Of a stretch of 32,430 bases of DNA, positions 9,322-31,240 are shown piece after piece. Source of the stretch: Desulfobulbaceae bacterium (GTDB lineage: Bacteria > Desulfobacterota > Desulfobulbia > Desulfobulbales > Desulfobulbaceae); contig JAABTP010000031.1 of NCBI GenBank assembly GCA_011389815.1, positions 1 through 32,430 on the forward strand. The letters run 5' to 3'. Under the pieces are notes generated by a model, which worked only from the letters and a program-made list of their open reading frames with translations, made no database searches and was not told the origin of the DNA. The first letter of the stretch is position 1, and each line of letters opens with the position of its first letter. The position numbers and the translations under genes are program-made.

Positions 9322-9434
9322 TTCATATCAGAACTTTCCCCTTTTCCAGCACTTCTCTTGTGAAAGAGTTATCGGCTTTAATAAAATTATCCCATTCCTG
9401 CCTTGTATACACGATCAGATCCATAGGAACCTTA
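9322..9434 (-). repeat. Direct repeat, left copy (MNT 3' end)
   Basis: This 113-bp segment is repeated in the same orientation at 11125-11237 (constant offset 1803, no gaps, about three mismatches). The two copies bracket the genes at 9454-11105. The layout could result from insertion of the intervening block together with a duplicated gene end, or from a tandem duplication followed by loss. Confidence 0.85.
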
Positions 9435-9436
9435 TG
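9328..9436 (-). pseudogene. 3' fragment of a nucleotidyltransferase (MNT) gene
   Basis: The minus strand encodes only the tail KVPMDLIVYTRQEWDNF...EVLEKGKVLI-stop. This is almost identical to the last 36 residues of the complete MNT gene at 11126-11479. The catalytic GSYADG domain is missing. The match to the intact copy is ungapped over 113 bp with about three differences, so this is a recent duplicate. The fragment lies at the left border of the accessory block, just upstream of the polysaccharide operon. Confidence 0.85.
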
Positions 9437-9453
9437 TTGGATTATGTCAGTTG

Positions 9454-10099: not shown

Positions 10100-10549
10100 T
10101 CACGGCAATTGATCGAGATCACTGATATCTTTCGGTCTCCCGCTCGCTTTCTTATTTATTCTGAGATGCTCTGAATTGATGAGGTTTACCTTTATACCGT
10201 CAATAAAGTCAGCTATTCTTTTCTCATAGCATTCCTTAAAACTTACACCTGATATGTCAGTCAGCACCTCAATCCTGACAGGAGGCATTCCCATTCTTAT
10301 CACCTGTCTTCTTTTCAGGAACAGATCAGCACTCAGCTCTGGTAGATCAAACCCGAATTCTTTCAGCACGCCGACCATCTTATCCGCATTTTCGGGAGAA
10401 GTCGCAATCCAGATATCCATATCTCCGGTCGCCCTCGGATATCCGTGATACCCTACAGCGAAACCGCCGATAAGCAGATATTCTACTTTATGAGAGTTCA
10501 GCAGTCTCAAAAACTCTCTGAAGTCTTTCGGTAAGTGGATTGTATCCAT
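10100..10549 (-). CDS. DUF6036/AbiEii-like nucleotidyltransferase, probable TA toxin-type protein
   Basis: A 149-residue nucleotidyltransferase-fold protein. Residues 20-50 show YLLIGGFAVGYHGYPRATGDMDIWI: the GG helix start and the DMD catalytic pair of the polymerase-beta-like superfamily, in the form common to DUF6036/AbiEii/MenT relatives. A basic tail, KASGRPKDISDLDQL, closes it, as is typical of the family. Its start overlaps the preceding 71-residue gene by 62 bases, so the pair is translationally coupled. By family knowledge such pairs behave as TA or defence-type modules that modify RNA with nucleotides. No activity can be inferred directly here. Confidence 0.8.
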   Translation of the reverse strand: MDTIHLPKDFREFLRLLNSHKVEYLLIGGFAVGYHGYPRATGDMDIWIATSPENADKMVGVLKEFGFDLPELSADLFLKRRQVIRMGMPPVRIEVLTDISGVSFKECYEKRIADFIDGIKVNLINSEHLRINKKASGRPKDISDLDQLP

Positions 10550-10703
10550 AAAGTATCTGTCTCATTAGTTCAACAGCGTACATGCGTTCAACCGGTTTTT
10601 TTGACAGCCAGTACTGTTTTTCGTCAGATTCTTCATCAAGAGAGCTTACTGAAAACGATGTCTTATCCATTCTGACACTGTCCAACGGCAATTTTTTTCG
10701 CAT
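10488..10703 (-). CDS. Small partner protein of the DUF6036 nucleotidyltransferase
   Basis: A 71-residue soluble protein containing SFSVSSLDEESDEKQYWLSKKPVERMYAVELMRQILYGYNP. This is a widespread small family that I associate with genes directly upstream of DUF6036-type nucleotidyltransferases. Upstream position, size and long overlap suggest a cognate antitoxin or regulator. That role is inferred from gene order, not demonstrated by a motif. Confidence 0.72.
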   Translation of the reverse strand: MRKKLPLDSVRMDKTSFSVSSLDEESDEKQYWLSKKPVERMYAVELMRQILYGYNPLTERLQRVFETAELS

Positions 10704-10796
10704 AAAATTATCACCTCACAAGTAACCTCCGGCAGCTCCGAAAAAAAGATTGATCAGACACCGGGTACACTGAAACTACAGATATTCATTTACCGC

Positions 10797-11105
10797 TCAT
10801 GCGGCTCTGTTTTCCCGAAGCTTGGCCTTCAGTTTCGAGGACGTGTTTCTCCGCATGATTCCGAGAAACTTTTCGCTTTCTTCAATCTCTCTGTCGATCT
10901 CTGTCTGATGGTCGAAATAGTAGGCGAGAGCGGCATAAATATCCGCAAGGCTCAGGTCGTATTCCGCCGCGATTTCATCTGCGCTTTTTCCCAGATGATC
11001 GTGCCAGACCGCAATATTCCGAACCGTAATTCGGCGTCCCGCAATCCGGGGTCTGCCACCCGCTATTCCCGGAGTGACATCAATATGTCTGTCAAGACTG
11101 CCCAT
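10797..11105 (-). CDS. DUF433 antitoxin-like protein (orphan)
   Basis: A 102-residue protein of the DUF433 (VapB-like) winged-helix family: HIDVTPGIAGGRPRIAGRRITVRNIAVW, then SADEIAAEYDLSLADIYAALAYYFDH. The start at 11105 has GGAGG 7 bases upstream; an upstream ATG (11129) would overlap the MNT stop by ATGA. DUF433 genes usually precede a DUF5615 PIN-like toxin. Here the TGA overlaps a new ATG (ATGAGCGG), but that frame stops after four codons and no toxin follows before 10703. The antitoxin therefore appears orphaned. It is probably co-transcribed with the MNT gene upstream. Confidence 0.78.
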   Translation of the reverse strand: MGSLDRHIDVTPGIAGGRPRIAGRRITVRNIAVWHDHLGKSADEIAAEYDLSLADIYAALAYYFDHQTEIDREIEESEKFLGIMRRNTSSKLKAKLRENRAA

Positions 11106-11124
11106 AACTCTCCCTCCATCTATT

Positions 11125-11237
11125 TTCATATCAGAACTTTCCCCTTTTCCAGCACTTCTCTGGTGAAAGAGTTATCAGCTTTCATAAAATTATCCCATTC
11201 CTGCCTTGTATACACGATCAGATCCATAGGAACCTTA
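11125..11237 (-). repeat. Direct repeat, right copy (end of intact MNT gene)
   Basis: This is the intact partner of the 113-bp repeat at 9322-9434. It covers the last 36 codons and stop of the complete nucleotidyltransferase gene. The match stops at codon RKVP, where the left copy diverges abruptly into unrelated sequence. Confidence 0.85.
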
Positions 11238-11479
11238 CGTTTTAAAAAAGTGAAATATTTTTTTACCGAAGAATAATTCGCGACTCTTTCGTCAAAATCC
11301 TTCGGCATACCGTCTTGATCCAGCACCACAATTAAATCTATATCGCTGTCATCGCCGACTTCTCCGTCTGCATACGAACCGAACAGTACGGCTTTATACG
11401 GATTCAGCTCGGTCAGAATATTTTTCAATTCAGTCAGGTAATTCCGCAACATGCTTTTATGCTCCATAATATATTTCAC
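11126..11479 (-). CDS. Minimal nucleotidyltransferase (MNT domain), antitoxin-like
   Basis: A 117-residue MNT-type protein with the catalytic signature AVLFGSYADGEVGDDSDIDLIVV (residues about 30-52: GSY, then DXD). A C-terminal region with KVPMDLIVYTRQEW follows. In HEPN/MNT systems the MNT protein neutralises a HEPN RNase by adding AMP to it. No HEPN gene is adjacent here; the DUF433 gene follows directly instead. The annotated start is GTG with a GAG-rich site upstream; an ATG four codons later (11467) is an alternative. The last 36 codons are duplicated at 9322-9434. Confidence 0.82.
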   Translation of the reverse strand: MKYIMEHKSMLRNYLTELKNILTELNPYKAVLFGSYADGEVGDDSDIDLIVVLDQDGMPKDFDERVANYSSVKKYFTFLKRKVPMDLIVYTRQEWDNFMKADNSFTREVLEKGKVLI

Positions 11480-11625
11480 AGAAGCTCTTTCATTTAAACC
11501 TGTTCATGCGTTTCATCATACCATGTATCCCGGCTCTGCAAACATTATTTTTGCACCACACAGGAAAGATAGGGAGATGCTTTTGATATTAAAAAGCCCA
11601 AGCATTGCCGCGATGATCAGGGGGC

Positions 11626-11702
11626 ATTTTCCATAAGAGGGATATTACCTGATGCGGGGAGAAGGGGCAAGGGGGATGGCCGATAGTGCGAAGGAATGCC
11701 CT
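11626..11702. repeat. Intergenic direct repeat, copy 1
   Basis: The segment including TTACCTGATGC, GGGGCAAGGGGGATGGC and GTGCGAAGGAATGCCCTGAA recurs in the same orientation at 12184-12262 with a few substitutions and a 1-2 base gap. The two copies flank the MNT/truncated HEPN pair. No coding function is evident. Confidence 0.75.
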
Positions 11703-11718
11703 GAAACCGGGCGGTGAT

Positions 11719-11856
11719 TTAGTTTCGGATAACGGCATCCTGCGTTTTTATATCCTCAAAGAAATCACTACTGCTCATTGTTTCAGTATAGGCAGTTATT
11801 CGTTGCAACGCCTCTCTGATATGACTCAAAAAGTCGCTGTCCGTTCTTTCAGACAT
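11719..11856 (-). pseudogene. Truncated HEPN (DUF86) toxin gene
   Basis: The frame overlaps the MNT stop by 8 bases (ATGTCTGA) and encodes 45 residues: MSERTDSDFLSHIREALQR through DIKTQDAVIRN, then TAA. This is the N-terminal third of a DUF86/HEPN RNase, where the chain normally continues after VIRN with LEIIGEA and a later RX4-6H active site. The active site is absent, so toxicity should be lost. The break coincides with entry into the intergenic repeat copy at 11626-11702. The MNT antitoxin upstream is intact. Confidence 0.8.
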
Positions 11857-12151
11857 AAATAATGCTCCGCTCAATATCCCGGGCGATTCTTTTCACGGTT
11901 ATCCTTCGTACACCTTCCGGTGTCAGAACGTCGGCCTTCTTTCCCAGAATATCCTCAAGATACTCTGTAAACTCGACGAATCGGAGACCGATCGGGCGTT
12001 CAAATTCCGCCACAAGGTCAACATCGCTTTCTTCCGTCTGCTCGCCCCTGGCATAAGAACCGAACAGGCCCAGCCTTTTTACGCCGTACTCTGCCATAAG
12101 ATAGGGATATTTTCCTCGGAGAATTTCAGTAATCTTTTCTTTCGTCAGCAT
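11849..12151 (-). CDS. mntA: MNT-domain nucleotidyltransferase antitoxin (HEPN/MNT type)
   Basis: A 100-residue MNT protein: a helical start MLTKEKITEILRGKYPYL, then RLGLFGSYARGEQTEESDVDLVAEF with the GSYARG loop and the DVD metal-binding pair, and KADVLTPEGVRR with an Asp on the next strand. This is the classical MntA form, which AMPylates its HEPN partner. The ATG at 12151 is preferred over an upstream extension of the frame that runs into the repeat. The partner gene is truncated (11719-11856), so the antitoxin has nothing intact beside it to inhibit. Confidence 0.85.
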   Translation of the reverse strand: MLTKEKITEILRGKYPYLMAEYGVKRLGLFGSYARGEQTEESDVDLVAEFERPIGLRFVEFTEYLEDILGKKADVLTPEGVRRITVKRIARDIERSIIYV

Positions 12152-12183
12152 GATTCCGTTACAGTGTTCTATTTTTCCGCAGG

Positions 12184-12262
12184 ATTTCCACAAGAGAATA
12201 TTACCTGATGCAGGAAGGAGGGGCAAGGGGGATGGCGGAGAGTGCGAAGGAATGCCCTGAAG
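12184..12262. repeat. Intergenic direct repeat, copy 2
   Basis: Second copy of the segment at 11626-11702, just upstream of the MNT gene and next to the last integron attC site. Both copies keep the GGGGCAAGGGGGATGGC core and the following GTGCGAAGGAATGCCCTGAA. Confidence 0.75.
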
Positions 12263-12294: not shown

Positions 12295-12357
12295 GTATAA
12301 CGTTGCCGCTCAGCCGCGCGCGCCTTTGGCGCGTCGGCTGGATTAGCCTTGTTATGC
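12295..12357 (-). other. attC-like integron recombination site (cassette 2)
   Basis: On the minus strand a 63-nt imperfect palindrome starts GCATAAC and ends GTTATAC (simple sites). The inner arms are CAGCCGACGCGCC and GGCGCGCGCGGCTG, with an extra base on one side. It starts 4 bases after the cassette gene stop, as is usual for integron cassettes. The extrahelical base and arm asymmetry are typical of attC folded on the bottom strand. Confidence 0.72.
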
Positions 12358-12361
12358 GCTT

Positions 12362-12922
12362 TCATGGAAAATACACCTTCATGACGGCTGAATAGACCAT
12401 TGCGCTGATAATAGATAACAAAATTACATTTGCCACAAGCGAAGCAAGAAGGGTTGGCTTACAGCAGGAATAATATGGCTCTTTTCTAAATTCTTTGTCT
12501 CGATATTTATCAAGGCTTGGAAACTCGATGTTTACATTTGTATCAATTCGGCTGTCCCATTTCCTGTGAATACGTGAAGTTATTAATCTCTCGGCATGAC
12601 GCCGTATGAGTTGAGCACCTTCTATGAAATTTTTGTAATTTGCTATGAAGTAATATGAACCCAATACTGCGCTAAAGAAAATAGTGATGCTACCATTTGT
12701 GTGGCCCAGCACCTGAGTTTTAATATGAAGACCGAAGAACTGCTCTAATTCTTTAGGGAGATGAACAAGAATTATGTTTTCTACATCCTGCCTTAAAGAG
12801 CCTTTATCGATATTGCTATTTTCTCCATCAGCGTTCAAATAACGCCCTTCTATCTTTGCTTCATAGTTGTAGTCAAGATGAACGTTGAATATGAATTCAC
12901 GTTTTTTTCGGAAGATGCTCAT
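12362..12922 (-). CDS. Integron cassette protein with two membrane segments, unknown function
   Basis: A 186-residue protein. A soluble N-terminal part (1-85) is followed by a hydrophobic segment around 85-105 (SITIFFSAVLGSYYFIANY). A charged loop contains EGAQLIRRHAERLITSRI, and the C-terminal helix lies at about 155-182 (LLASLVANVILLSIISAMVY). I recognise no family. It is tightly packed between two attC-like sites, with GGAG before the ATG and its stop 4 bases from the site. The base composition is more AT-rich than the nuclease cassette beside it, which suggests separate origins. Confidence 0.75.
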   Translation of the reverse strand: MSIFRKKREFIFNVHLDYNYEAKIEGRYLNADGENSNIDKGSLRQDVENIILVHLPKELEQFFGLHIKTQVLGHTNGSITIFFSAVLGSYYFIANYKNFIEGAQLIRRHAERLITSRIHRKWDSRIDTNVNIEFPSLDKYRDKEFRKEPYYSCCKPTLLASLVANVILLSIISAMVYSAVMKVYFP

Positions 12923-12938
12923 GACTCTCCTTTTTTAC

Positions 12939-13011
12939 GCATAACGCCAGCCATCACCGGCGGGAATGGAGCGCAGCGGAATTCCCGTCCGTGTGCATGG
13001 CTTTGTTCGGC
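12939..13011 (-). other. attC-like integron recombination site (cassette 1)
   Basis: A 73-nt imperfect palindrome on the minus strand runs from GCCGAAC to GTTATGC. Its arms are AAAGCCATGCACACGG and CCGGTGATGGCTGGCG around GGGAATTCC and GGAATTCCC-like inner arms. It begins 4 bases after the nuclease stop. A chance reading frame through it gives NKAMHTDGNSAALHSRR, a peptide pattern often mis-annotated across attC sites. Confidence 0.78.
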
Positions 13012-13015
13012 ATTT

Positions 13016-14068
13016 TCATTGTTTCAGTCCGTGTTGCTTCACCGCCTTCTCGACGGACTCGCACCACTGGACAAGACTGTCGATTTCCGGCTCCGTCAGG
13101 GGTCGGGTAATCTGACATTTCAGGTCTCGTCCTGCAGGAGCAAAGAGACCTGTTGCCTCTGCCTGCTTCCATAGTCTCTGAATCTCGTCCTCGGGCACTG
13201 CCGACTTCTTCTCTACTCCGCCACGGTCCCGTAAGGTTGTCCGTAACGTTTGTTTGTAGACGGAGTCAGGTGGATACACGAAACACACGGCGACGTGTGT
13301 GCCGTCTAAATCAACATTCAGGGAGAACCCCTTTGTACCCCAATGGATGGGCATGGCTCTGGACTTTGCCAGTTTCAGAATCCGTGCAAAAACGGCTTTG
13401 CCGTTTTCGTCGGCAGAGGCAAGGAATGCATCTTCTGTCACAACAGGTAGGGAACCAGACGAAACCTGCTTCGGTTTCTCCGATTCCGTCCCGACAACGA
13501 TCTCTTGCGAAAGCAGACGGGTACCTCCGTCTGCTTGGAAGAATGTAAACTCCACACATGTGACACGAAGGCCCTTGGAACGAAGGAAAGTCGCTGTCTG
13601 CCGGATCTCAGGCGTAACACGTTGACCGACAATGACAATGCGTTGATCTTTGTTGAATGCGACCGCCTCGTCGGAACCCAGCTCAAAATACTCCCGGTGG
13701 TGTTCGGCAAGGCTCAAGGAGTCGTCATTCAGGTACGACCGGAGAATCCCTTCAAGCTGAGCGGTGTCCAGTCGTTCAGCAAAGGAGACGTATTCGAGGG
13801 ACTGCGCAATCGTATCGCGTGGTGTTCGATCTCGCTTCAACTCGACTACGACGACATCGCCCTCGCGGTCGAGGCCGAGAAGGTCGATGAATCCGCCGAA
13901 GTTTGTAACAACTTGCCGTCCGATGATGAGGATTCGTCCGTCTTCGACAATCCCGTCGGGATTGGATTCCAGCCAATCTTCCAGCACGGCCTCCGCGTGA
14001 TCGACCTGGAAAGGCGTTTGCACGTATTCGCTGAATTGGCCGTCAGGTTGTACGCCGAAGACTCTCAT
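13016..14068 (-). CDS. Integron cassette: NucS/DUF91-like PD-(D/E)XK endonuclease
   Basis: A 350-residue soluble protein. Residues 25-110 form a restriction-endonuclease-like core: LEDWLESNPDGIV, then FIDLLGLDREGDVVVVELKRDRTPRDT. This gives the Asp (about 62) and the ExK pair (ELK) of the PD-(D/E)XK fold in the NucS/DUF91 arrangement, followed by the QSLEYVSF helix. The C-terminal half (about 215-350) is a separate domain with no recognised family; it may bind DNA. GAGGAGA precedes the ATG. It is the first cassette beside the putative attI, where expression from an integron promoter would be strongest. It appears GC-richer than its neighbours. A role in DNA repair or phage defence is plausible but unproven. 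Confidence 0.8.
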   Translation of the reverse strand: MRVFGVQPDGQFSEYVQTPFQVDHAEAVLEDWLESNPDGIVEDGRILIIGRQVVTNFGGFIDLLGLDREGDVVVVELKRDRTPRDTIAQSLEYVSFAERLDTAQLEGILRSYLNDDSLSLAEHHREYFELGSDEAVAFNKDQRIVIVGQRVTPEIRQTATFLRSKGLRVTCVEFTFFQADGGTRLLSQEIVVGTESEKPKQVSSGSLPVVTEDAFLASADENGKAVFARILKLAKSRAMPIHWGTKGFSLNVDLDGTHVAVCFVYPPDSVYKQTLRTTLRDRGGVEKKSAVPEDEIQRLWKQAEATGLFAPAGRDLKCQITRPLTEPEIDSLVQWCESVEKAVKQHGLKQ

Positions 14069-14081
14069 ATTCTCCTCTCAT

Positions 14082-14242
14082 GCCGAACAGTATTAATAAG
14101 TGGAAATTTGTCCTGCTATTGACCGTAATAGGTACCGCAAAAATCCACTTATTCAGATATTGACACGGTAAAAGCGGAAACCTTTTCCACTTATCAATTT
14201 TCACCTACATCTTTCCTCTTATCATGATATACAGCAGCTAAC
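14082..14242 (-). other. Presumed attI region of the integron
   Basis: This gap separates the integrase start from the first cassette. The cassette boundary reads GTTCGGC on the minus strand (14088-14082), the same core as the start of the attC at 13005-13011. Three copies of a 9-mer lie inside: TCCACTTAT at 14144-14152 and 14186-14194, and its inverse ATAAGTGGA at 14096-14104. Direct repeats bound by the integrase are known in attI1. A cassette promoter is expected here, but I see no clear consensus boxes. Confidence 0.6.
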
Positions 14243-14575
14243 ATGGAAAATAAAAAGAGTAAACAAAAATTTCGTCCAAATCCGAAGCTTAAATTGATGG
14301 AGCAAGTTCATGAAGTTCTTCGCTATCATCACTATGCCTACAAGACAGAGCAGACATACAGTCAGTGGATCCTCCGCTACATTAATTTTTTCGAGTGCAA
14401 GGTTCACCCTGCCGAACTCGGGGCTGGTGATGTTGAACGCTTCCTTTCTCATCTTGCTGTTGAACGGAAAGTATCCGCATCCACTCAGCGTCAGGCATTG
14501 AACGCTCTGGTTTTCCTTTACCGACTCTCTCCTCCCCCCTCATCTTCCGGCTTGTTCCCGCCTTTACGCGGATGA
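14243..14575 (+). pseudogene. intI: Truncated integron integrase (IntI-like tyrosine recombinase)
   Basis: The first about 93 residues are a typical IntI N-terminal core-binding domain: KLMEQVHEVLRYHHYAYKTE, QTYSQWILRYINFF, the HPAELGAGDVERFLSHLAVE segment and VSASTQRQALNALVFLYR. After LYR (about 14523) the sequence changes to a proline/serine run and stops. The whole catalytic domain with the Arg-His-Arg-Tyr residues and the IntI-specific patch is missing. The gene points away from the cassettes, the standard integron layout. No catalytic activity is possible from this copy. Confidence 0.88.
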
Positions 14576-14901
14576 TGATTGATTTCACTCAACCGCTTAC
14601 CCCCCGCCATCTCGTATTCATTGCTGTCCCTACCGAACTTCACCTTCACCCCGGAGAGCATCTGCGAAGACATATCGCGAAGATCCTTTTCATCCGTATC
14701 GAAGTTATTACCCGCCGCATCAGCCCGGGCAAGTATCCCGTTATAGGTATCTTCGGATGTCTGTGTTTTGTTTATCCGGGCTTCAAAAGCCGCAACGGTG
14801 AGGCCATTGCCTAAATCCAGGTTCGGGTCGATTGCCTTGAGATTGGCGAGACGTTCAAGGGCTTCTGCGATGATGCGTGAGGATCTGCGACGAAATGCCA
14901 T
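14518..14901 (-). CDS. Conserved protein of unknown function interrupting intI
   Basis: A 127-residue soluble protein. NLKAIDPNLDLGNGLTVAAFEARI, then KDLRDMSSQMLSGVKVKFGRDSNEYEMAGG and a basic HHPRKGG tail. I recall close relatives with the DS-EYEMAGG-RKSER ending in cyanobacteria and other bacteria, with no known function. It is helical, charged and has no membrane segment. It has an excellent AAAGGAGG site 7 bases before ATG and a consensus-like promoter. Its stop falls where integrase homology ends, so it is the insert, or the survivor of a deletion, that removed the intI catalytic domain. Confidence 0.72.
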   Translation of the reverse strand: MAFRRRSSRIIAEALERLANLKAIDPNLDLGNGLTVAAFEARINKTQTSEDTYNGILARADAAGNNFDTDEKDLRDMSSQMLSGVKVKFGRDSNEYEMAGGKRLSEINHHPRKGGNKPEDEGGGESR

Positions 14902-14966
14902 GAGCGGGCCTCCTTTGGGAAGAATTATTCTTTTTAAGAAAGGGAGTTGCAGCGGAAAGTAAATAA

Positions 14967-14995
14967 ACTGTAAAATGTTTACGCTCTTTTGTCAA
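14967..14995 (-). promoter_or_regulatory. Sigma-70-type promoter for the unknown 127-residue protein
   Basis: On the minus strand TTGACA (14995-14990) and TACAGT (14972-14967) are separated by exactly 17 bases. The -35 box is perfect and the -10 box is good, about 65 bases before the ATG at 14901. Confidence 0.65.
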
Positions 14996-15056
14996 GCAGA
15001 AAAAAGCATGAGCAAAGGAAATCCTGCCCGATCAGACTTCCTGAACGGCAGACAAC

Positions 15057-15350
15057 AAAGGAGCCTTGATAAACAAAATTCCTTTGCTGTCTATCAAGAC
15101 TCCTTCCTGGTTTAACAAAACTTCTTCCTTGATAATCAACGCTCCTTGGTTGATAACAAATGCTTCTTCGTTGTTTAATAAAACTCCTCCGTTGATAAAC
15201 AACACTCCTCCCTTGTTTATCAAGGCTCCTTCATGGATAATCAGGACTCCTTGTTTGATAATCAACGCTTCTACGTTGATGAGCAGGAATCCTTGGTTGA
15301 TTGATAAGACTTCGTTGACAGCGAACAGGACTCGCTGTCAGGCAGGACGA
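15057..15350. repeat. Tandem array of fourteen 21-bp units
   Basis: Fourteen diverged units of exactly 21 bp run without a phase break; a representative is ACTCCTCCGTTGATAAACAA plus C. Most begin with a purine, then CTCCTT or CTTCTT, followed by TTGATAA-like sequence. Because 21 is a multiple of three, frames stay open on both strands. The minus strand (15032-15265, TTG start only) gives a heptapeptide repeat such as GVLIIHE, GALINKG, GVLFING, and the plus strand gives another. No ATG or ribosome site supports either. It might be a relic of a repeat protein, a minisatellite or a regulatory array. Confidence 0.88.
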
Positions 15351-26054: not shown

Positions 26055-26186
26055 CTATCTGTCGTGTCCGAACAGGTATTCCCGGTGTTGCACGCAGATG
26101 GTGACGAAATAGGCCCCGGCCTGCGAATAATCGTAATTGCGCAGGCGGATGGAACGGCGGTGGTGGATATCAGGGTTGTATAACAT
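26055..26186 (-). pseudogene. N-terminal remnant of a REP-associated tyrosine transposase (RAYT), copy B1
   Basis: The minus strand encodes 43 residues from ATG at 26186: YNPDIHHRRSIRLRNYDYSQ, then AGAYFVTICVQHREYLFGHD and a stop. This is the characteristic start of RAYT/Y1 (TnpA_REP) proteins, where AYF-VT begins the first beta strand of the HUH domain. The HUH motif and catalytic Tyr are missing, so the gene is dead. It is the longest of six copies of this 5' fragment (B1-B6) and identifies the source of the shorter ones. Confidence 0.82.
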
Positions 26187-26304
26187 GGCGAATTATTGGA
26201 TATACCGTGGTTTCGCAGGGGCAGATCCCTGTGCCTACCCTATCGGAACATACCGGGATGGCGGATGAACAAGGCGGAGATGGGGATCCGCCCCTGCCGA
26301 ATTC
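26187..26304. other. Gap with GGGGC-type degenerate palindromes
   Basis: This holds GCAGGGGCAGATCCCTGTGCC near 26217 and GGGGATCCGCCCCTGCC near 26283, which are imperfect relatives of the GTAGGGGC palindromes. No gene is seen. Confidence 0.5.
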
Positions 26305-26397
26305 CGAATAATCACCCCGGCCCGTGCATTATCATCATTACGCAGGCCGTAGATACGTAGGTCTTAATTGAGTATAACGAAATCAGATAATCCGAGC
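26305..26397. repeat. Composite repeat A, copy A1 (hairpin right arm missing)
   Basis: The copy starts CCGAATAATCACCCCGGCCC, continues through a RAYT-like CGTAATGA stretch (minus strand), and has the left hairpin arm from GTAGGTC at 26357 to CAGAT at 26388. It ends in the loop at CCGAGC. The right arm present in A2, A3 and A5 is absent, and YafQ-remnant sequence begins immediately. Confidence 0.85.
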
Positions 26398-26406
26398 TGA
26401 AGAATC

Positions 26407-26457
26407 CTATTTCTTAAAATCCCTTGAAAACTGGCGCATCTGAGAAACTTTTCTCAT
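26407..26457 (-). pseudogene. Beheaded YafQ/RelE-type toxin (16 codons left)
   Basis: The ATG overlaps the RelB stop as ATGA (26457-26454), which is the usual coupling in dinJ-yafQ/relBE operons. The frame reads MRKVSQMRQFSRDFKK and stops. That is a good match to the first strand and helix start of YafQ-type toxins, whose next residues would continue the helix. Repeat A1 begins 10 bases beyond the stop. The rest of the toxin is gone. Confidence 0.75.
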
Positions 26458-26711
26458 GAGGGCCAGGTTTCAAACATCTCGTCAAGGCTGTCAAATTCCT
26501 CCACCTCCTCACCTTGCTGGCTTTTTACCAGGGTTTCGGCAATGCATTTATTCGGAATTTCAACAGGAAAAGGCAGTCCGTTACCGAGGCATATTTGACG
26601 ATAGAATATCCGTATCGCCTCGGTGGGTGTCAGCCCCAAGCGTCGGAGAACCTGTTCAGCTTTCTCTTTGGTGTCCGGCTCAATTCGAGCATGTATGGTT
26701 GCAGTTTTCAT
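26454..26711 (-). CDS. RelB/DinJ-family antitoxin (orphan)
   Basis: An 85-residue ribbon-helix-helix antitoxin: MKTATIHARIEPDTKEKAEQ and VLRRLGLTPTEAIRIFYRQI, then NGLPFPVEIPN, the typical DinJ hinge. The C-terminal part (KSQQGEEVEEFDSLDEMFE) would wrap the toxin. The start at 26711 fits the family; an upstream frame extension does not. It has an inverted repeat upstream (26722-26741). Its toxin partner is reduced to 16 codons, so this gene may now act only as a free antitoxin or repressor. Confidence 0.85.
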   Translation of the reverse strand: MKTATIHARIEPDTKEKAEQVLRRLGLTPTEAIRIFYRQICLGNGLPFPVEIPNKCIAETLVKSQQGEEVEEFDSLDEMFETWPS

Positions 26712-26721
26712 AGTAGCTTTA

Positions 26722-26741
26722 GTGTAGCACGTATGCAACAC
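26722..26741 (-). promoter_or_regulatory. Candidate operator of the RelB/DinJ locus
   Basis: GTGTAGCA and TGCAACAC flank CGTA with one mismatch, 10 bases before the ATG. It suits an RHH antitoxin operator. Confidence 0.45.
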
Positions 26742-26765
26742 ACTGGCAAGGGTATATCAATACCT

Positions 26766-26824
26766 CTGGCCCGTGCATAATCGTAATTGCGCAGACGGAT
26801 GGAACGGCGATGGTGGATATCAGG
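26766..26824. repeat. RAYT 5'-fragment repeat, copy B2
   Basis: The minus strand reads PDIHHRRSIRLRNYDYARAR, the RAYT start without its first codons. It is joined directly to the hairpin of copy A2, so the hairpin lies where the 5' flank of the RAYT gene would be. Confidence 0.8.
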
Positions 26825-26930
26825 CACGTAGGTCTTAATTGAGTACAACGAAATCAGACAATCCGAGCAAAGAACCGTCTGCTTTCGTGGCACTCAAGCG
26901 GATCTACCCGGCTGACTCCATTGATTTGCT
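26825..26930. repeat. Composite repeat A, copy A2 with complete hairpin
   Basis: The left arm GTAGGTC...CAGAC (26828-26859) pairs with the right arm GTCTG...GATCTAC (26877-26907) around a 17-nt loop, AATCCGAGCAAAGAACC. The stem is about 31 bp with a few mismatches. A GATTTGCTTG tail follows. Confidence 0.88.
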
Positions 26931-26960
26931 TGTTGCGTTTCTGGGGTGAACGGAATAAAA

Positions 26961-26979
26961 TGTAATTACGGTAATTACA
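26961..26979 (+). promoter_or_regulatory. Candidate MazE operator
   Basis: TGTAATTAC-G-GTAATTACA is a perfect 9+9 inverted repeat 46 bases before the mazE ATG. Confidence 0.55.
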
Positions 26980-27025
26980 CAAAGACGGAAGGCATTAATG
27001 ACATAATCATACCCGGAGCAGAATT

Positions 27026-27289
27026 ATGGGAAAAAATCTCAGAAAAAAGACGGTTAAGATTGTTCCTATCGGCAACTCTCAGGGAATTCGCCTTCCGAAA
27101 GAAGTGTTGCGGAAGTACGGCTTTGTTGATTCGTTGATTCTTGAGGAAACAGGCACCGGTCTTCTTCTCCGAAAACAAGAAAATAACAAACTTTCATGGG
27201 AAGAGACCTACAAAGCGATATCCGAGGAACAGGAGGACTGGAGCGATTTCAATGTGACGGTTGCAGATGGGCTGGAGGAAAAAAGTTGA
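27026..27289 (+). CDS. mazE: MazE-type antitoxin (SpoVT/AbrB fold)
   Basis: An 87-residue antitoxin. The N-terminal swapped-hairpin DNA-binding domain reads KTVKIVPIGNSQGIRLPKEVLRKYGFVDSLILEE, with the hallmark GNSQGIRLPK. The acidic C-terminal tail (WEETYKAISEEQEDWSDF) would block the toxin active site. GGAG is 7 bases before ATG, and an operator-like repeat lies upstream. Its TGA overlaps the mazF TTG start. It is the only plus-strand TA locus in the array. Confidence 0.9.
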   Translation: MGKNLRKKTVKIVPIGNSQGIRLPKEVLRKYGFVDSLILEETGTGLLLRKQENNKLSWEETYKAISEEQEDWSDFNVTVADGLEEKS

Positions 27290-27618
27290 AGGTGCAACGC
27301 TATGAGGTCTATTTTGCCGATCTGAATCCCACACAGGGCAGTGAAATACGCAAGGTTCGTCCTGTAGTGGTTGTCAGCCAGAATGCCATGAATAACCATT
27401 TGGAAACGGTTGTTATCTGCCCCCTGACCTCATCGTTGCATCCGACCTGGAGAAGTCGTCAGCAAGTTTCCTGTGCAGGAAAAGCAGCTGAAATCGCAGT
27501 GGATCAGATACGGACGATCAGTAAGACTCGTCTTCGGCAAAAACTTGATATCCTGTCCAAAACAGATGCATCCCAGCTGCGGAGGCTGATTTCTGAAATG
27601 TATGGTGAGGGGTCGTGA
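27286..27618 (+). CDS. mazF: MazF/PemK-type mRNA interferase toxin
   Basis: A 110-residue sequence-specific endoribonuclease. RYEVYFADLNPTQGSEIRKVRPVVVVSQNAMN is the first conserved block, with Gly-Ser-Glu and the catalytic Arg. TVVICPLTSS is the second, with the catalytic Thr/Ser, and DQIRTISKTRL is the third. All blocks are present, so the toxin should be functional. The start is inferred as TTG at 27286 (TTGA overlap, GGAGG 7 bases upstream); GTG at 27292 is the alternative. The copy B3 repeat starts 2 bases after the stop. Confidence 0.9.
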   Translation: MKVQRYEVYFADLNPTQGSEIRKVRPVVVVSQNAMNNHLETVVICPLTSSLHPTWRSRQQVSCAGKAAEIAVDQIRTISKTRLRQKLDILSKTDASQLRRLISEMYGEGS

Positions 27619-27619
27619 T

Positions 27620-27680
27620 GGAGTAATTGCGCAGGCGGATGTAACAGCGGTGATGGATGTCGGGGTTGTATGACATGGGT
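27620..27680. repeat. RAYT 5'-fragment repeat, copy B3
   Basis: The minus strand reads SYNPDIHHRCYIRLRNY, the RAYT start again. It begins immediately after the mazF stop codon. Confidence 0.8.
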
Positions 27681-27703
27681 ATGTATCATTCCACGGTATT
27701 GTG

Positions 27704-27746
27704 GTAGGGGCGTTACGTGTAAGGGCGTTTTGCGAAACGCCCCTAC
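27704..27746. repeat. GTAG/CTAC palindrome, copy P3
   Basis: GTAGGGGCGTT (27704-27714) and AACGCCCCTAC (27736-27746) form a perfect 11-bp stem around a 21-nt loop that includes a further GGGCGTTTTGCG hairpin. It has the same GTAGGGGC ends as P4-P6 but a different centre. Confidence 0.8.
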
Positions 27747-27777
27747 GACGCAACGGAAAGGCATTGCCCCTCTGTTA

Positions 27778-28041
27778 TCACGAATAATGGTACCTGCATG
27801 AAATAATAGTAATATACTGATCAGTCACAGCGTAAACCAACCTGTTTGCCTCATCAATTCTGCGGGACCAGAACCCAGATAAGTTCTCCTTTAACGCTTC
27901 CGGCTTACCTATTCCTCTAAAGGGATCACGCTTGACCGCATCAATTAGCTTATTGATCCTTTTCAGGCTTTTTCTGTCCTGGGATTGCCAGTAGATATAA
28001 TCCTTCCATGCTTCATCGGTCCAAGCAAGCTGTCTATTCAC
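27778..28041 (-). CDS. yoeB: YoeB-type mRNA interferase toxin
   Basis: An 87-residue RelE-superfamily toxin that cleaves mRNA in the ribosome. LAWTDEAWKDYIYWQSQDRKSLKRINKLI opens it. DPFRGIGKPEALKENLSGFWSRRIDEANRLVYAV is the typical YoeB centre, and ISCRYHYS is the C-terminal active-site segment with the His-Tyr pair. It starts with GTG, overlapping the yefM stop by 8 bases. All key residues appear intact. Confidence 0.93.
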   Translation of the reverse strand: MNRQLAWTDEAWKDYIYWQSQDRKSLKRINKLIDAVKRDPFRGIGKPEALKENLSGFWSRRIDEANRLVYAVTDQYITIISCRYHYS

Positions 28042-28288
28042 GAATCAGCTCTCTTTCCTTTACCTGACCGTTGTTATACTGCATGATGGAATTTGTCAAA
28101 TGTTCGGCATTGGCCGGAGTTTTGAGGAGGTAAAAGGTTTCCATCAGACTATTGAAGACCTCCAACGACATCACAATGGCATCCTCTCGGTCCCGCCTTG
28201 AAATAATTGTATAATCTGCATCATCAGTTACCTGATCCAGTACCGCTTTCAGGTTGTTTCTTGCTTCGCTAAAATTGACCACTTTCAT
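28034..28288 (-). CDS. yefM: YefM antitoxin (Phd/YefM family)
   Basis: An 84-residue antitoxin. The N-terminal domain has VVNFSEARNNLKAVLDQVTDDADYTIISRRDREDAIVMSL, the Phd/YefM DNA-binding fold. The C-terminal helix (SLMETFYLLKTPANAEHLTNSI) binds YoeB. The yefM-yoeB order is normal, and a TGTACA-containing repeat lies upstream. Confidence 0.93.
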   Translation of the reverse strand: MKVVNFSEARNNLKAVLDQVTDDADYTIISRRDREDAIVMSLEVFNSLMETFYLLKTPANAEHLTNSIMQYNNGQVKERELIRE

Positions 28289-28300
28289 GATTACCTCCTG

Positions 28301-28324
28301 ACTTGTTCTGTTTGTTGTACAAGT
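28301..28324 (-). promoter_or_regulatory. Candidate YefM operator
   Basis: ACTTGT (28301-28306) and ACAAGT (28319-28324) are inverted, and TGTACA lies at 28316-28321 inside TTGTACAA. The E. coli yefM-yoeB operator also uses palindromes with a TGTACA core. Confidence 0.55.
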
Positions 28325-28350
28325 TTAGCTCGGCGACATACAAATGGCAA

Positions 28351-28406
28351 GCGAATAATTGCACAAACGGATGGAACGGTGGTGGTGGATGTCCGGGTTC
28401 ATTCAT
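28351..28406. repeat. RAYT 5'-fragment repeat, copy B4
   Basis: The minus strand reads MNEPGHPPPFHPFVQLF-like codons, with a shifted frame relative to B1 but clear base-level identity (GATGGAACGG, GTGGTGGATGTC, TTCATTCATG). It is the left part of a full B-P-A composite (28351-28606). Confidence 0.75.
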
Positions 28407-28436
28407 GGTCATGCGATGCGGCAGGGGTGGAACGTT

Positions 28437-28464
28437 GTAGGGGCACGGCGCGCCGTGCCCCTAC
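28437..28464. repeat. Perfect 28-bp palindrome with GTAG/CTAC ends, copy P4
   Basis: GTAGGGGCACGGCG is followed directly by its exact inverse complement. It sits between copies B4 and A3. The GTAG end resembles the tetranucleotide next to REP hairpins recognised by RAYT enzymes. Confidence 0.9.
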
Positions 28465-28606
28465 CGAATAATCACCCCGGCCCGTGCATTATCATCATTA
28501 CGCAGGCCGTAGATACCGTAGGTCTTAATTGAGTACAACGAAATCAGACAATCCGAGCAAAGAACCGTCTGCTTTCGTTGCACTCAAGCGGACCTACACG
28601 GCTATT
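28465..28606. repeat. Composite repeat A, copy A3 with complete hairpin
   Basis: CGAATAATCACCCCGGCCC, a RAYT-like piece, then the hairpin: left arm 28518-28549, loop AATCCGAGCAAAGAACC, right arm 28567-28597. The end abuts the stop of the XRE gene at 28609. Confidence 0.88.
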
Positions 28607-28608
28607 TT

Positions 28609-28911
28609 TCAGCCTGTTAAGGGTACAGTCTTTCTTCCTTTTTGCGCCACCAATTTGTACCCCAAGGGTTTTAACAAGGAGGCCATTGTTTTCATGGTAA
28701 TATTCGTCGACTTCATTGAGCGCATATTCTGAATAATAGAGGTTGAGATACCTGATTTTTCAGCAAGCTCCCTTACGCTAACATGCTCCTCTTTCATCGC
28801 TTCAAGGAGCAGTTCAGAAAAAAGAAACTGCGCATATTCTTTTTCGAATTTCTTTTTTTGTTCCGCATCGCTCATAATACGATCAAAGGTGGTCTTTTTT
28901 TTATTCTTCAT
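28609..28911 (-). CDS. XRE-type HTH antitoxin of a HigBA-like pair
   Basis: A 100-residue protein. After a helical start (FDRIMSDAEQKKKFEKEYAQFLFSELLLEAM), the HTH is HVSVRELAEKSGISTSIIQNMRSMKSTNITMKTMASLLKPLGYKL. It follows the toxin with an 11-base overlap, the toxin-first order of HigBA systems. The last codons (QKGRKTVPLTG) end 3 bases from repeat A3; the true ending may have been altered there. The ATG at 28911 is favoured over an upstream start inside the toxin. Confidence 0.85.
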   Translation of the reverse strand: MKNKKKTTFDRIMSDAEQKKKFEKEYAQFLFSELLLEAMKEEHVSVRELAEKSGISTSIIQNMRSMKSTNITMKTMASLLKPLGYKLVAQKGRKTVPLTG

Positions 28912-29284
28912 AATAACATCCACTTGTTACCCTTGACATGTAACTCTTCATTCTTTTCAGGGCCAATGCCTTTTCTTTTTTTGGCAACTTTTGAGTCTTC
29001 TTGCGAAAACCATTTGTAATAATGATCTTTTTCCCTGTATAGAAAAATGACATAAACCGATCCGGCTGCGGTTTGAAGGCGAATATTTTCTCACCCTCGT
29101 TTCGGAATTTTGTAATATCAGATATTCTACCGAAATCACCGATTCTTTTAAAAAGCATCAATGTCTTTCGTTTTTGGGCATCAGAAAGAGTTTCAAAAAA
29201 TTTAAGAGCTTCGCTCTCACCTTTCTCGTTGAAAAACCACTCAACGGTTAAGGTGTCTCCTTCGTATGCGATGAATTCTTTCAT
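28901..29284 (-). CDS. RelE/HigB-like toxin (phage-derived Gp49-like family)
   Basis: A 127-residue toxin. EALKFFETLSDAQKRKTLMLFKRIGDFGRISDITKFRNEGEKIFAFKPQPDRFMSFFYTGKKIIITNGFRKKTQKLPKKEKALA. This is the Gp49-like HigB layout, with the KP-x-RF strand and a final NGF-KK-QK-P basic segment. The intact C-terminus suggests a functional toxin. An inverted repeat lies just upstream (29293-29312). Confidence 0.85.
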   Translation of the reverse strand: MKEFIAYEGDTLTVEWFFNEKGESEALKFFETLSDAQKRKTLMLFKRIGDFGRISDITKFRNEGEKIFAFKPQPDRFMSFFYTGKKIIITNGFRKKTQKLPKKEKALALKRMKSYMSRVTSGCYYEE

Positions 29285-29292
29285 AAGAGTAG

Positions 29293-29312
29293 TGTATCAT
29301 TATTATGATACA
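29293..29312 (-). promoter_or_regulatory. Candidate operator of the Gp49-like TA locus
   Basis: TGTATCAT-TATT-ATGATACA is a perfect 8+8 inverted repeat 8 bases before the toxin ATG. Binding here would block translation initiation or transcription. Confidence 0.6.
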
Positions 29313-29341
29313 GAGGGCAAGCACTTTTGGACTGCTTACAG

Positions 29342-29437
29342 GTAATCACCCCGGCCCGTGCAGTATCGTCATTACGCAGGCACGTAGGTCTTGATTGGGT
29401 ACAGCGAAATCAGACAATCCGGGCAAAGAACCGGCTG
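29342..29437. repeat. Composite repeat A, copy A4 (right arm truncated)
   Basis: The RAYT-like piece and left arm (29384-29415) are present. The loop, AATCCGGGCAAAGAACC, is followed by only GGCTGCC before sequence of the next TA locus. The left arm has a few substitutions (TTGGGTACAGCG). Confidence 0.85.
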
Positions 29438-29441
29438 CCGA

Positions 29442-29705
29442 CTATTTCATCTTGTATACCTCACGACGATGCCGCACAAAATAAATCGTGATACTTTCTT
29501 TCTCCTTACTGAACGTGTAGAGAACGCGGTAATCTCCGACACGCAATTTATATACACCTGACCATTGCCCGGTCAGCGATACCGGAGACAGTGAGCTGAA
29601 GTTCTCGGAAAGCCATCGAATCTTGGAGAATACTCGCTGGGCAACAGGCTTGTTCAGACGTTTTAAATCGTTGGCGGCAGTCGGAGTAAAATCTACCTGG
29701 TACAT
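29442..29705 (-). CDS. RelE/ParE-superfamily toxin
   Basis: An 87-residue RelE-fold toxin: YQVDFTPTAANDLKRLNKPVAQRVFSKI, the LTGQWSGVYKLRVGDYRVLYTF core with Lys/Arg/Arg, and ITIYFVRHRREVYK with the C-terminal His-Arg active segment. The ATG at 29705 lies 2 bases after the antitoxin stop. It looks complete and likely functional. Confidence 0.9.
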   Translation of the reverse strand: MYQVDFTPTAANDLKRLNKPVAQRVFSKIRWLSENFSSLSPVSLTGQWSGVYKLRVGDYRVLYTFSKEKESITIYFVRHRREVYKMK

Positions 29706-29707
29706 GC

Positions 29708-29929
29708 TTACCACTCTAATCCAAGTTGAGAAGCCACACTATCCGCTGATAACAAGTTACCGTCCGCCTGAGATGTATTCAAAGAAGCCTGCATCTCGCT
29801 TTTGAAGTCTTCCCGTAATTCCAAGCCCTCGTCCGGGTCTCGAAATATATCTTTCAATGTTTGGCGGACAACCTCCTGAATAAGGACGCGCAGTTCATCT
29901 ACGCTTAAATCTGATACACGGGCTGACAT
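29708..29929 (-). CDS. Antitoxin partner of the RelE toxin
   Basis: A 73-residue acidic helical protein: MSARVSDLSVDELRVLIQEVV, DPDEGLELREDFKSEMQASL and SADSVASQLGLEW at the end. This small antitoxin family, with LSVDEL near the start and LGLEW at the end, is widely found before RelE genes. It lacks a recognisable DNA-binding domain. The ATG at 29929 has GGAGAAG upstream, within a longer frame. Confidence 0.82.
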   Translation of the reverse strand: MSARVSDLSVDELRVLIQEVVRQTLKDIFRDPDEGLELREDFKSEMQASLNTSQADGNLLSADSVASQLGLEW

Positions 29930-30067
29930 TTTCTTCTCCATATAATAAGGTGTTGACATGGCGTCATTCGGAACCCTCTCTTATTTTGTTCCTTTTGTAG
30001 GATAAAGGCTGAAGATGTCTGTTGTCAACAGGAGAGATGGGGAACGCGACAACCGCACCCTGTCTGG

Positions 30068-30140
30068 TCCGGCCAGTGAATAATCGTCATTGCGCAGGCG
30101 GATGGAACGGCGGTGGTGGATGTCGGGTTCATTCATGATT
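30068..30140. repeat. RAYT 5'-fragment repeat, copy B5
   Basis: The minus strand from ATG at 30136 reads MNEPDIHHRRSIRLRNDDYS, then LAGPDRV, the RAYT start. It is the left part of the B-P-A composite at 30068-30340. Confidence 0.82.
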
Positions 30141-30168
30141 GATAGTATGAACGGGGTTGGATGACGTT

Positions 30169-30196
30169 GTAGGGGCACGGCGCGCCGTGCCCCTAC
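30169..30196. repeat. Perfect 28-bp palindrome with GTAG/CTAC ends, copy P5
   Basis: Identical to copy P4 (28437-28464) and in the same position between a B and an A element. Confidence 0.9.
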
Positions 30197-30340
30197 CGAG
30201 AATAATCACCCCGGCCTGTGCATTATCGTCATTACGCAGACACGTAGCTCTTGATTGAGTACAACGGAATCAAACAATCCGGGCAAAGAACCGTCTGCTT
30301 TCGTTGCACTCAAGCGGGCCTACCCGGCTATTGATTTGCT
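30197..30340. repeat. Composite repeat A, copy A5 with complete hairpin
   Basis: RAYT-like piece, then left arm 30244-30275, loop AATCCGGGCAAAGAACC and right arm 30293-30323, then a TTGATTTGCT tail. It is slightly diverged from A2 and A3. Confidence 0.88.
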
Positions 30341-30350
30341 ATTTTCCCTC

Positions 30351-30635
30351 TCAACTTAACCTTGCTCTATCCTGCCTTTCGTCCCACACCCTTAAAATTT
30401 CAATTACTTCGCCTTTAATTCGGTAGATAAAAGAAAACGGTATGTTGGGTATAGAAAACTCCAAGATATTATTATCTTGGATAACGTGCCCGATGTATGG
30501 ACTCTCTTTTATTAAACCTTTTGTGCTATGAAATTGTTTTTGCGCTTTTTCCAGTCCTTGAGGAAAAACACTCTCATAGTAATACCTGAACCATTTTAAA
30601 TCATTTAACGAGCTTGCTAAAAATTTTACCTGCAT
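30351..30635 (-). CDS. RelE/ParE-family toxin
   Basis: A 94-residue RelE/ParE-fold toxin: VKFLASSLNDLKWFRYYYESVFPQGLEKA opens it. The core is YIGHVIQDNNILEFSIPNIPFSFIYRIKGEVIEILRVWDERQDRARL, with the Tyr-Arg strand and the C-terminal VWDERQD typical of ParE/RelE relatives. The ATG lies 6 bases after the antitoxin stop. It appears complete. Confidence 0.88.
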   Translation of the reverse strand: MQVKFLASSLNDLKWFRYYYESVFPQGLEKAQKQFHSTKGLIKESPYIGHVIQDNNILEFSIPNIPFSFIYRIKGEVIEILRVWDERQDRARLS

Positions 30636-30641
30636 AATTTA

Positions 30642-30923
30642 TTAGGTATCAGGGAATATATCCGGTTCAGGTACAGGAAGTTCATTTTCAATTCCCCATG
30701 AATCAACCCAAGCATCGACTGCCTCTTCAGAAACGAATGCTCCCTTATCAGCCTTCTTGATTGCCTCGTTAATAGCCTTTCTTTTCGCTGTTCTAGCCTG
30801 CAGGAAATTCTTGATTGCTTTGTTGGCAAGGTAGGAAGGTGTTCGGTCACCTCTTTTCGCTTCCTGTTCAAGCAGTGCCTTGGTGCTTGGATCAATCCTT
30901 AGAGAAAACGGAATAGTAGCCAT
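30642..30923 (-). CDS. RHH (CopG/Arc-like) antitoxin
   Basis: A 93-residue antitoxin. ATIPFSLRIDPSTKALLEQEAKRGDRTPSYLANKAIKNFL is the RHH DNA-binding half. KGAFVSEEAVDAWVDSWG is the toxin-binding segment commonly found in CopG-type partners of ParE/RelE. The start at 30923 is chosen for the RHH start; the longer frame crosses the operator. The upstream DNA carries an exemplary operator and promoter (30943-30992). Confidence 0.9.
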   Translation of the reverse strand: MATIPFSLRIDPSTKALLEQEAKRGDRTPSYLANKAIKNFLQARTAKRKAINEAIKKADKGAFVSEEAVDAWVDSWGIENELPVPEPDIFPDT

Positions 30924-30942
30924 AGTAGTTAGCTCCATAAAA

Positions 30943-30992
30943 TTAAAAAGTATACGTCGTATACATTGTATACTTTTTAAAATTTCTGTCAA
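30943..30992 (-). promoter_or_regulatory. Promoter with triple GTATAC operator of the RHH/ParE locus
   Basis: TTAAAAAGTATAC (30943-30955) and its exact inverse GTATACTTTTTAA (30968-30980) surround a third GTATAC (30959-30964). On the minus strand TTGACA (30992-30987) and TACAAT (30970-30965) are 16 bases apart, so the operator overlaps the -10 box. Cooperative RHH autorepression is expected. Confidence 0.75.
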
Positions 30993-31022
30993 CTTAAGAA
31001 TCAACAGTGAACAGTCCCCGGC

Positions 31023-31080
31023 CTATGAATAATCGTACCTGCGCAGGCGGATGGAACGGCGGTGATGGGGGGATATTCAT
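31023..31080. repeat. RAYT 5'-fragment repeat, copy B6
   Basis: Base-level match to the other B copies (GCGCAGGCGGATGGAACGGC, GGTGATGG). It is the left part of the B-P-A composite at 31023-31227. Confidence 0.75.
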
Positions 31081-31111
31081 GGTTTATGCGATGCGGCATG
31101 AATGGTGCGTT

Positions 31112-31139
31112 GTAGGGGCACGGCGCACCGTGCCCCTAC
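31112..31139. repeat. 28-bp palindrome with GTAG/CTAC ends, copy P6
   Basis: Same as P4 and P5 except for one central change (GGCGCACC), which makes the centre imperfect. Confidence 0.88.
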
Positions 31140-31227
31140 CGAATAATCACCCCGGCCCCCGTGCATTATCGTCATTACGCAGACACGTAGGTCTTGATTG
31201 AGTACAACGAAATCAGACAATCCGAGC
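31140..31227. repeat. Composite repeat A, copy A6 (hairpin right arm missing)
   Basis: RAYT-like piece and left arm (31187-31218). It ends in the loop at CCGAGC, the same position where A1 stops. HigA-gene sequence begins within 15 bases. Confidence 0.85.
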
Positions 31228-31240
31228 TGCGGGTTCAATG

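Follow-up and report, generated by a model that had tools for sequence, protein, structure and literature searches.

A degenerate integron in a Desulfobulbaceae genome as a probable dock for cassettes recombined in trans

In the usual picture, an integron is one array of cassettes at one attI site beside one integrase (IntI). A locus in Desulfobulbaceae bacterium (GenBank assembly GCA_011389815.1) raises the question of what becomes of an attI and its cassettes when the integrase next to them is broken. The locus occupies positions 12295–14575 of contig JAABTP010000031.1, of which positions 1–32,430 of the forward strand were analysed (hereafter the window). We confirmed that it is an integron whose own integrase is broken. 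It is probably one dock of a distributed integron, in which attI copies are dispersed through the genome and one intact IntI encoded elsewhere would recombine cassettes into them in trans.

The window integron and the complete integrase

The intI fragment (14243–14524, plus strand) consisted of the first 94 codons, encoding the N-terminal SAM-like domain only, and 90 of the 94 residues were identical to those of a complete IntI encoded on another contig of this genome, C196. In the open frame (14243–14575), residues 19–94 matched the integron integrase family TIGR02249 (86 bits, cut-off 265) and residues 18–94 matched Phage_int_SAM_4 (98.5 bits, cut-off 27). Pfam and NCBIfam profile searches found no catalytic domain in this frame, and its final 16 codons were not of intI origin. 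Alignment with the C196 platform gave a gapless DNA identity of 94.3% over 14084–14523, and homology returned at 14585, behind the C196 intI. The hexamer TTACCG at the point where this homology ends (14518–14523) is common to intI and its 3′ flank, and CCTTACCGACTC is the neighbouring-gene flank in G004, another genome of the genus. The homology break at 14523, together with this junction, indicates that the catalytic part of the window intI was deleted.

The region upstream of intI, including attI (14086–14242), was 94% identical to that upstream of the complete C196 intI and contained a conserved 21-mer (14086–14106). Homology to C196 started at 14084, within the attI-side core (14082–14088), where we take IntI to cut the minus strand at G|TT, between 14088 and 14087. 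The sequence-only reading, which had described a degenerate integron with a presumed attI and the start of an IntI without catalytic domain, was thus borne out, also by the intI-specific profile that it had proposed. Besides the attI adjoining intI, the locus had attC-ended cassettes with genes pointing away from attI, and its intI in cis was limited to residues 1–94.

Both cassettes lay on the minus strand and were delimited by the minus-strand core sequences. Cassette 1 (12945–14087, bounded by the cuts in attI and in R′ of attC 1) contained a 350-residue gene (13016–14068) with a NucS C-terminal-like nuclease domain (Pfam NucS_C, 31 bits, cut-off 24), which also matched the PADLOC candidate defence family PDC-S11 (135 bits). 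Its attC (12939–13011; R″ GCCGAAC, R′ GTTATGC) was identified by the match to its own core and by its fold, and scored 71.3 bits with an attC covariance model. Cassette 2 (12301–12944) contained a 186-residue gene (12362–12922) with a C-terminal hydrophobic segment (by eye) and no recognised family (no match to Pfam at E up to 1 or to PADLOC at E up to 0.1), and its attC (12295–12357; R″ GCATAAC, R′ GTTATAC) scored 41.6 bits. The next-best model match in the window reached 11.2 bits. The stop codons of both genes were 4 bases from their attC, as had been read from the letters alone, and the two palindromes held up as attC sites.

The covariance model was built from 13 attCs picked by the rule that each fits its own core, and both window sites were among them, so that the independent evidence in the window is the logic of the core sites. 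R″ of attC 1 and the attI-side core GTTCGGC were reverse complements of each other, and so were R″ of attC 2 and GTTATGC, the core between the cassettes. Such core complementarity is the trace expected when IntI inserts circular cassettes. The outer half of the original attI probably survives as R′ of attC 2. The defining features of an attC are the pairing of R″ with R′, a stem formed by L″ and L′ and, on one of the arms, extrahelical bases. All were present in the consensus of the 13 sites, which had 19 pairs, 13 of them with both partners changed in one or more of the sequences, and two unpaired columns (16 and 19) with nothing opposite.

A free search for hairpins resembling attC gave 181 matches in the window, far too many to be specific, and was replaced by the core-complementarity test and the covariance model. 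The first core test, with unconstrained folding, missed attC 1 of the window, and the thresholds of the later core test were chosen after this had been seen. Rfam gave no match in the window. In a promoter scan of 13950–14400, a promoter-like sequence turned up once (0.8 expected), as did a terminator-like one within the intI fragment (0.2 expected); no claim is based on either.

The complete IntI on C196 (334 residues; 434.9 bits against TIGR02249) contained the R, H-R, H and Y motifs, which are the catalytic motifs of the integrase. Its residues 21–332 aligned with the structure of Vibrio cholerae IntI4 (2A3V; E 2.4e-94). The complete intI elsewhere in the genome that had been suggested as a check is therefore present, behind a near-identical attI, which holds another cassette (a GmrSD-like 600-residue gene with its own attC). 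The C196 array also included a cassette with apparently three overlapping genes between two attC sites, one of them formyltransferase-like by reading (L007, 4119–6743).

Among the eight genomes of the genus (G000 to G007), three encoded an intI above the family cut-off (G000, G004 and G006). Matches on contigs C203 and C35 were set aside as presumably Xer-type recombinases, scoring 58–82 bits in halves, with similar matches in 36 of the 37 genomes and in all 14 controls. The best match in G007 (97 bits) was rejected as well, being the C-terminal part of another tyrosine recombinase by sequence reading. The intact intI of G004 had no recognisable attI of its own (best candidate with 7 mismatches, on the plus strand of the 1.5 kb upstream), and the same genome held seven attI copies elsewhere; integrase and attI are separated in this genome. 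A weak attC-like match (21 bits; L076, 18253–18370) was located approximately 60 bp before the start of this intI.

attI copies across the genus and their cassettes

A search with window positions 14060–14524 gave matches in all eight genus genomes. After removal of matches without the core side, 41 oriented copies remained, in which homology began at or next to the core and the cassette-side sequence differed from copy to copy. The exceptions were six copies sharing one unit, orthologous pairs, and strays (a copy at a contig edge, L127, and a short reversed match, L114). With at most one mismatch, the 21-mer AACARTRTTAATAAGNGGAAA occurred 3, 5, 8, 10, 7, 0, 6 and 7 times in G000 to G007, respectively; the reversed pattern had no match in any of the 37 genomes of that search. 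Together with six sites with two mismatches, which were sought in the fetched loci only, these 46 sites gave 52 attI-like sites (55 before double entries and sites with more than two mismatches were dropped). In the fetched loci, allowing up to three mismatches, the reversed pattern matched once, compared with 55 matches of the true pattern.

An intI match was present beside four of the 52 sites: full-length at C196 and at G006:215275, residues 1–94 at the window, and residues 2–28 in G003. For G006:215275, the fetched locus ended after residue 156, and completeness was established by the genome profile search and a motif check. No intI match was found at the other 48 sites within up to 1.6 kb behind the site. 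In 257 genomes of the class, the 21-mer was detected in 23, with a maximum of four copies per genome outside the genus, and the control gave one match in one genome. Some genomes of other genera had three (G018; contigs C12, C19 and C24) or four (G240) attI-like sites, some with an ATC core.

The assignment of the motif as attI was based on 35 intI loci of named relatives, mostly Desulfobulbales and other sulfate reducers (Desulfobacula and Desulfocapsa among them), with some gammaproteobacteria and Scalindua. The motif was tested in 24 of these loci, 22 of which had at least 150 bp upstream of intI. With up to two mismatches, it was present upstream of intI in 12 of the 22, at 149–159 bp before the start in 11 loci and at 78 bp in one, and none of the 24 loci had it on the other strand with fewer than 4 mismatches. 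Twelve of the 23 relatives' loci searched for attC had matches, 24 in total, and every one of these was on the minus strand and to the cassette side of intI. We take the motif as attI because of this position upstream of intI, with all attCs on the cassette side.

An attC was found within 5 kb on the cassette side at 29 of the 52 sites; the wrong strand had none, nor did the 1.5 kb on the opposite side (three matches with E above 0.05 were dropped). Homologous attI copies without an integrase thus do hold attC cassettes. The R″ of the nearest attC was the reverse complement of its own core in 21 of 29 cases, compared with 11 fits in 1423 comparisons with cores of other sites. Since the model was trained on sites picked by their own core, only the sites outside the training set count as independent; here the own core fitted in 9 of 17 cases and other cores in 11 of 830. 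A hairpin test without the covariance model was applied to 29 of the 41 copies, namely those that had an AAC core and whose left sequence was 1.5 kb or longer. It found an attC-like hairpin complementing the copy's own core in 13 of these, compared with 2 of 493 when cores of other copies were used. The whole-genome attC scan gave at least 35 matches, a lower bound given that 150 of 455 to 1090 candidates were scored per genome.

The first-cassette proteins (the window's and 20 others, three of the latter from sites without a model attC) included Pfam matches to NucS_C, GmrSD (two proteins), N6_Mtase with HSDR_N_2, PDDEXK_4 and HNH_2, and one sub-threshold match to GIY-YIG. Seven of 11 scanned proteins matched a defence or candidate-defence family in PADLOC; the 11 were chosen by hand, so that this is no estimate of their share, and candidate families are not proven defence. 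Several docked genes are therefore candidates for anti-phage defence genes by resemblance.

Cassette differences at integrase-less docks

The window dock, beside the gene for a 127-residue protein and a gatA-like gene (by reading), had orthologues in G004 and G007. These two shared the integrase-less junction ATGGAAAAGCCTTACC and flanks of 97–98% identity, and held different cassettes, a restriction–modification-like gene of 898 residues and a gene of 213 residues. The window represented a third cassette set at this dock, with a right flank 86–87% and a nearest left flank 96–98% identical to those of G004 and G007; from R′ GTTATACC outward, the outer flanks of the window and G007 were identical over 64 bases. 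At a second dock (G004:818k and G007:3.6k), flanks of 97–98% identity likewise enclosed different cassettes, with no intI at the dock in either genome. Three further docks were anchored on both sides (matches below 120 bits on the left and below 300 bits on the right were dropped) and shared no match above 120 bits in between, namely G002:494k/G003:C35:46k/G006:2995k, G002:63k/G006:3538k and G002:530k/G006:4138k; no model attC was found in either member of the last pair. The sequence-only reading had held the window cassettes frozen unless another IntI acts in trans. Its caveat has been sharpened by the near-identical complete IntI and attI in the genome and by relatives, which differ in cassettes at integrase-less attI copies.

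A single unit at several docks provided further evidence. In G006, a single contig, an identical 206-bp unit was located at four attI sites (215069, 2699765, 3538143 and 4137532), and intI was present beside the first only. G003 had a copy with 99.5–100% identity at one of its attI sites. G006 itself had two more, one of 94% inside its array and a partial one of 95% at a further attI, and G000 had a match of 77 bp; no others were among the matches listed for the eight genomes. At the five attI copies of G006 (four) and G003, the unit had an attI half (ATACTG or ACACTG) on one side and, on the other, an older cassette that started with GTT and differed from site to site, and the attI next to the four identical G006 units had three different sequences. 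Of six sites read, two (L117 and L139) had an older cassette whose nearest model attC began with a sequence complementary to that core; in the remaining four, no attC of this kind was found near the gene. The unit (L123:4793–4998 in G006) contained no recognisable gene, and its ends paired into a long attC-like hairpin with the core GAT instead of GTT. We read it as a gene-less cassette that would have been placed in trans by the G006 IntI, and it may act as a promoter, terminator or spacer.

The following course of events is the most probable explanation of these observations. A deletion in a chromosomal integron platform removed the catalytic part of intI and left attI and the two window cassettes intact, while copies of the attI–intI platform around the genome would have become docks on losing intI. 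An intact IntI from elsewhere in the genome would then recombine attC-bearing circular cassettes into the docks, making it the putative agent of the cassette differences, and the window cassettes may still be able to move. We give about even chances to a stronger version, a decentralised integron whose docks would be kept working for one trans-acting IntI, with a cassette (carrying defence genes in some cases, or gene-less) placed at several sites at once and not in one array; in some lineages, such as G004, integrase and attI would already have become fully separated.

Several results weigh against IntI acting in trans on dispersed docks. At the window's own locus, no evidence of movement was found within the species. 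No intI above the cut-off was detected by profile search in G001, G002, G003, G005 and G007, so that their docks cannot be served today unless an intI was missed or recently lost. A model attC was lacking at 23 of the 52 sites, the own-core training of the model leaves the independent subset given above, and eight of the 29 nearest attCs did not fit their own core (four of these eight sites have the gene-less cassette or a variant of it first). The whole-genome scan, with its 150 candidates per genome, found no attC in G006; the locus searches did find attCs there. Five loci had model attCs and no attI within two mismatches (L152–L155 and L157; G007 has three of them, and G004 and G000 have one apiece), and constitute integrase-less cassettes elsewhere in these genomes. 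Finally, one dock pair (G004:2871k and G007:1980k), with a diverged attI outside the 52, had the same content next to attI.

This unchanged pair, the five genomes without intI and the absence of intI at most docks would also fit an ordinary decaying integron, in which the loss of intI left attI and cassettes as fossils, the remaining attI copies are relics of numerous earlier integrons, and nothing acts in trans. We consider this unlikely because G006 has the gene-less cassette in identical form at three attI sites without intI, because the G004/G007 dock with one and the same integrase-less junction holds different cassettes, and because attC hairpins and core complementarity have been kept. 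Homologous recombination or gene conversion, instead of IntI, might have exchanged the cassettes, since the attI copies resemble each other closely enough for it, as do the repeats behind them, and the left flanks are partly repeated. However, the core (G|TT; in the gene-less cassette, G|AT) marked the boundary on both sides, one of which had unrelated cassettes, and the 206-bp unit was identical at four sites while the adjoining attI was not, which makes exchange of this kind quite improbable. The many copies, some with 0.5–1 kb in common on the right side, could also be viewed as a mobile repeat element that carries attI and has its neighbouring genes by chance. Such an element would hardly account for nearest attCs that all lie on the cassette side and strand, for their core complementarity, or for the motif upstream of intI in relatives, and we assign it very little probability, although it may still describe how the docks spread. 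Seven pairs of dock copies, compared at their right-hand ends, had no site in common.

Related systems and flanking features

Each part of the arrangement is known already. The dispersed attI layout was not met in the titles and opening lines of abstracts found for additional attI sites and for gene-less cassettes, in a literature that mostly excluded subscription papers. Sedentary chromosomal integrons of the V. cholerae type resemble the present one in IntI family, attI, and attC cassettes read away from intI; the differences are the truncated intI, the many dispersed attI copies, and the one to a few cassettes per dock where attC was found. With two attCs and an intI fragment only, the window locus also falls within the clusters of attC sites lacking integron integrases (CALINs), that is, at least two attCs with no intact integrase nearby. 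In the accessible parts of the sources, CALINs are likewise attC sites without a working integrase nearby and are defined by attC alone, attI being poorly described outside class 1 (PMC9024848), and they are reported to be mobilizable in trans (PMC12444791); in contrast, each locus here keeps a homologous attI. The multi-locus CALINs of Xanthomonas are similar in having integrase-less cassette loci at several conserved positions, and neither dispersed attI nor one cassette at several attI sites is described for them in the part of PMC12444791 available. Insertion at attG (PMC12444791) and delta-attI cassettes (PMC12901181) also involve cassette sites away from the canonical attI. As far as the available parts of these papers tell, attG sites are consensus sites unlike attI and delta-attI are attI remnants serving as the cassette's own site, whereas the sites described here are attI copies upstream of cassettes.

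If the proposed arrangement holds, at least half a dozen attI docks served by one integrase would offer several first positions, and with them a new view of cassette expression, dosage and stability, and integrase-less loci would gain an active role. The set of docks is also a supply of natural attI variants.

To the right of the integron, the 127-residue gene (14518–14901, minus strand) follows intI in C196 and also several integrase-less attI copies. It had no Pfam or NCBIfam match and was followed by a block of short repeats of approximately 21 bp (by eye; gene and block together 14518–15330), and the same gene with similar repeats was observed behind many attI copies across the genus. To the left, a row of minus-strand nucleotidyltransferase (MNT-like) and DUF433 genes (10100–12226) possibly represents toxin–antitoxin parts; two genes of this row matched PADLOC candidate families. 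The left flank also contained direct repeats of 117 bp (97% identity; 9322–9438 and 11125–11241) and 78 bp (90% identity; 11628–11705 and 12185–12261). Further along the window (26104–31230), a diverged family of direct repeats was interspersed between small genes, with a 28-bp palindrome at 28437–28464, 30169–30196 and 31112–31139.

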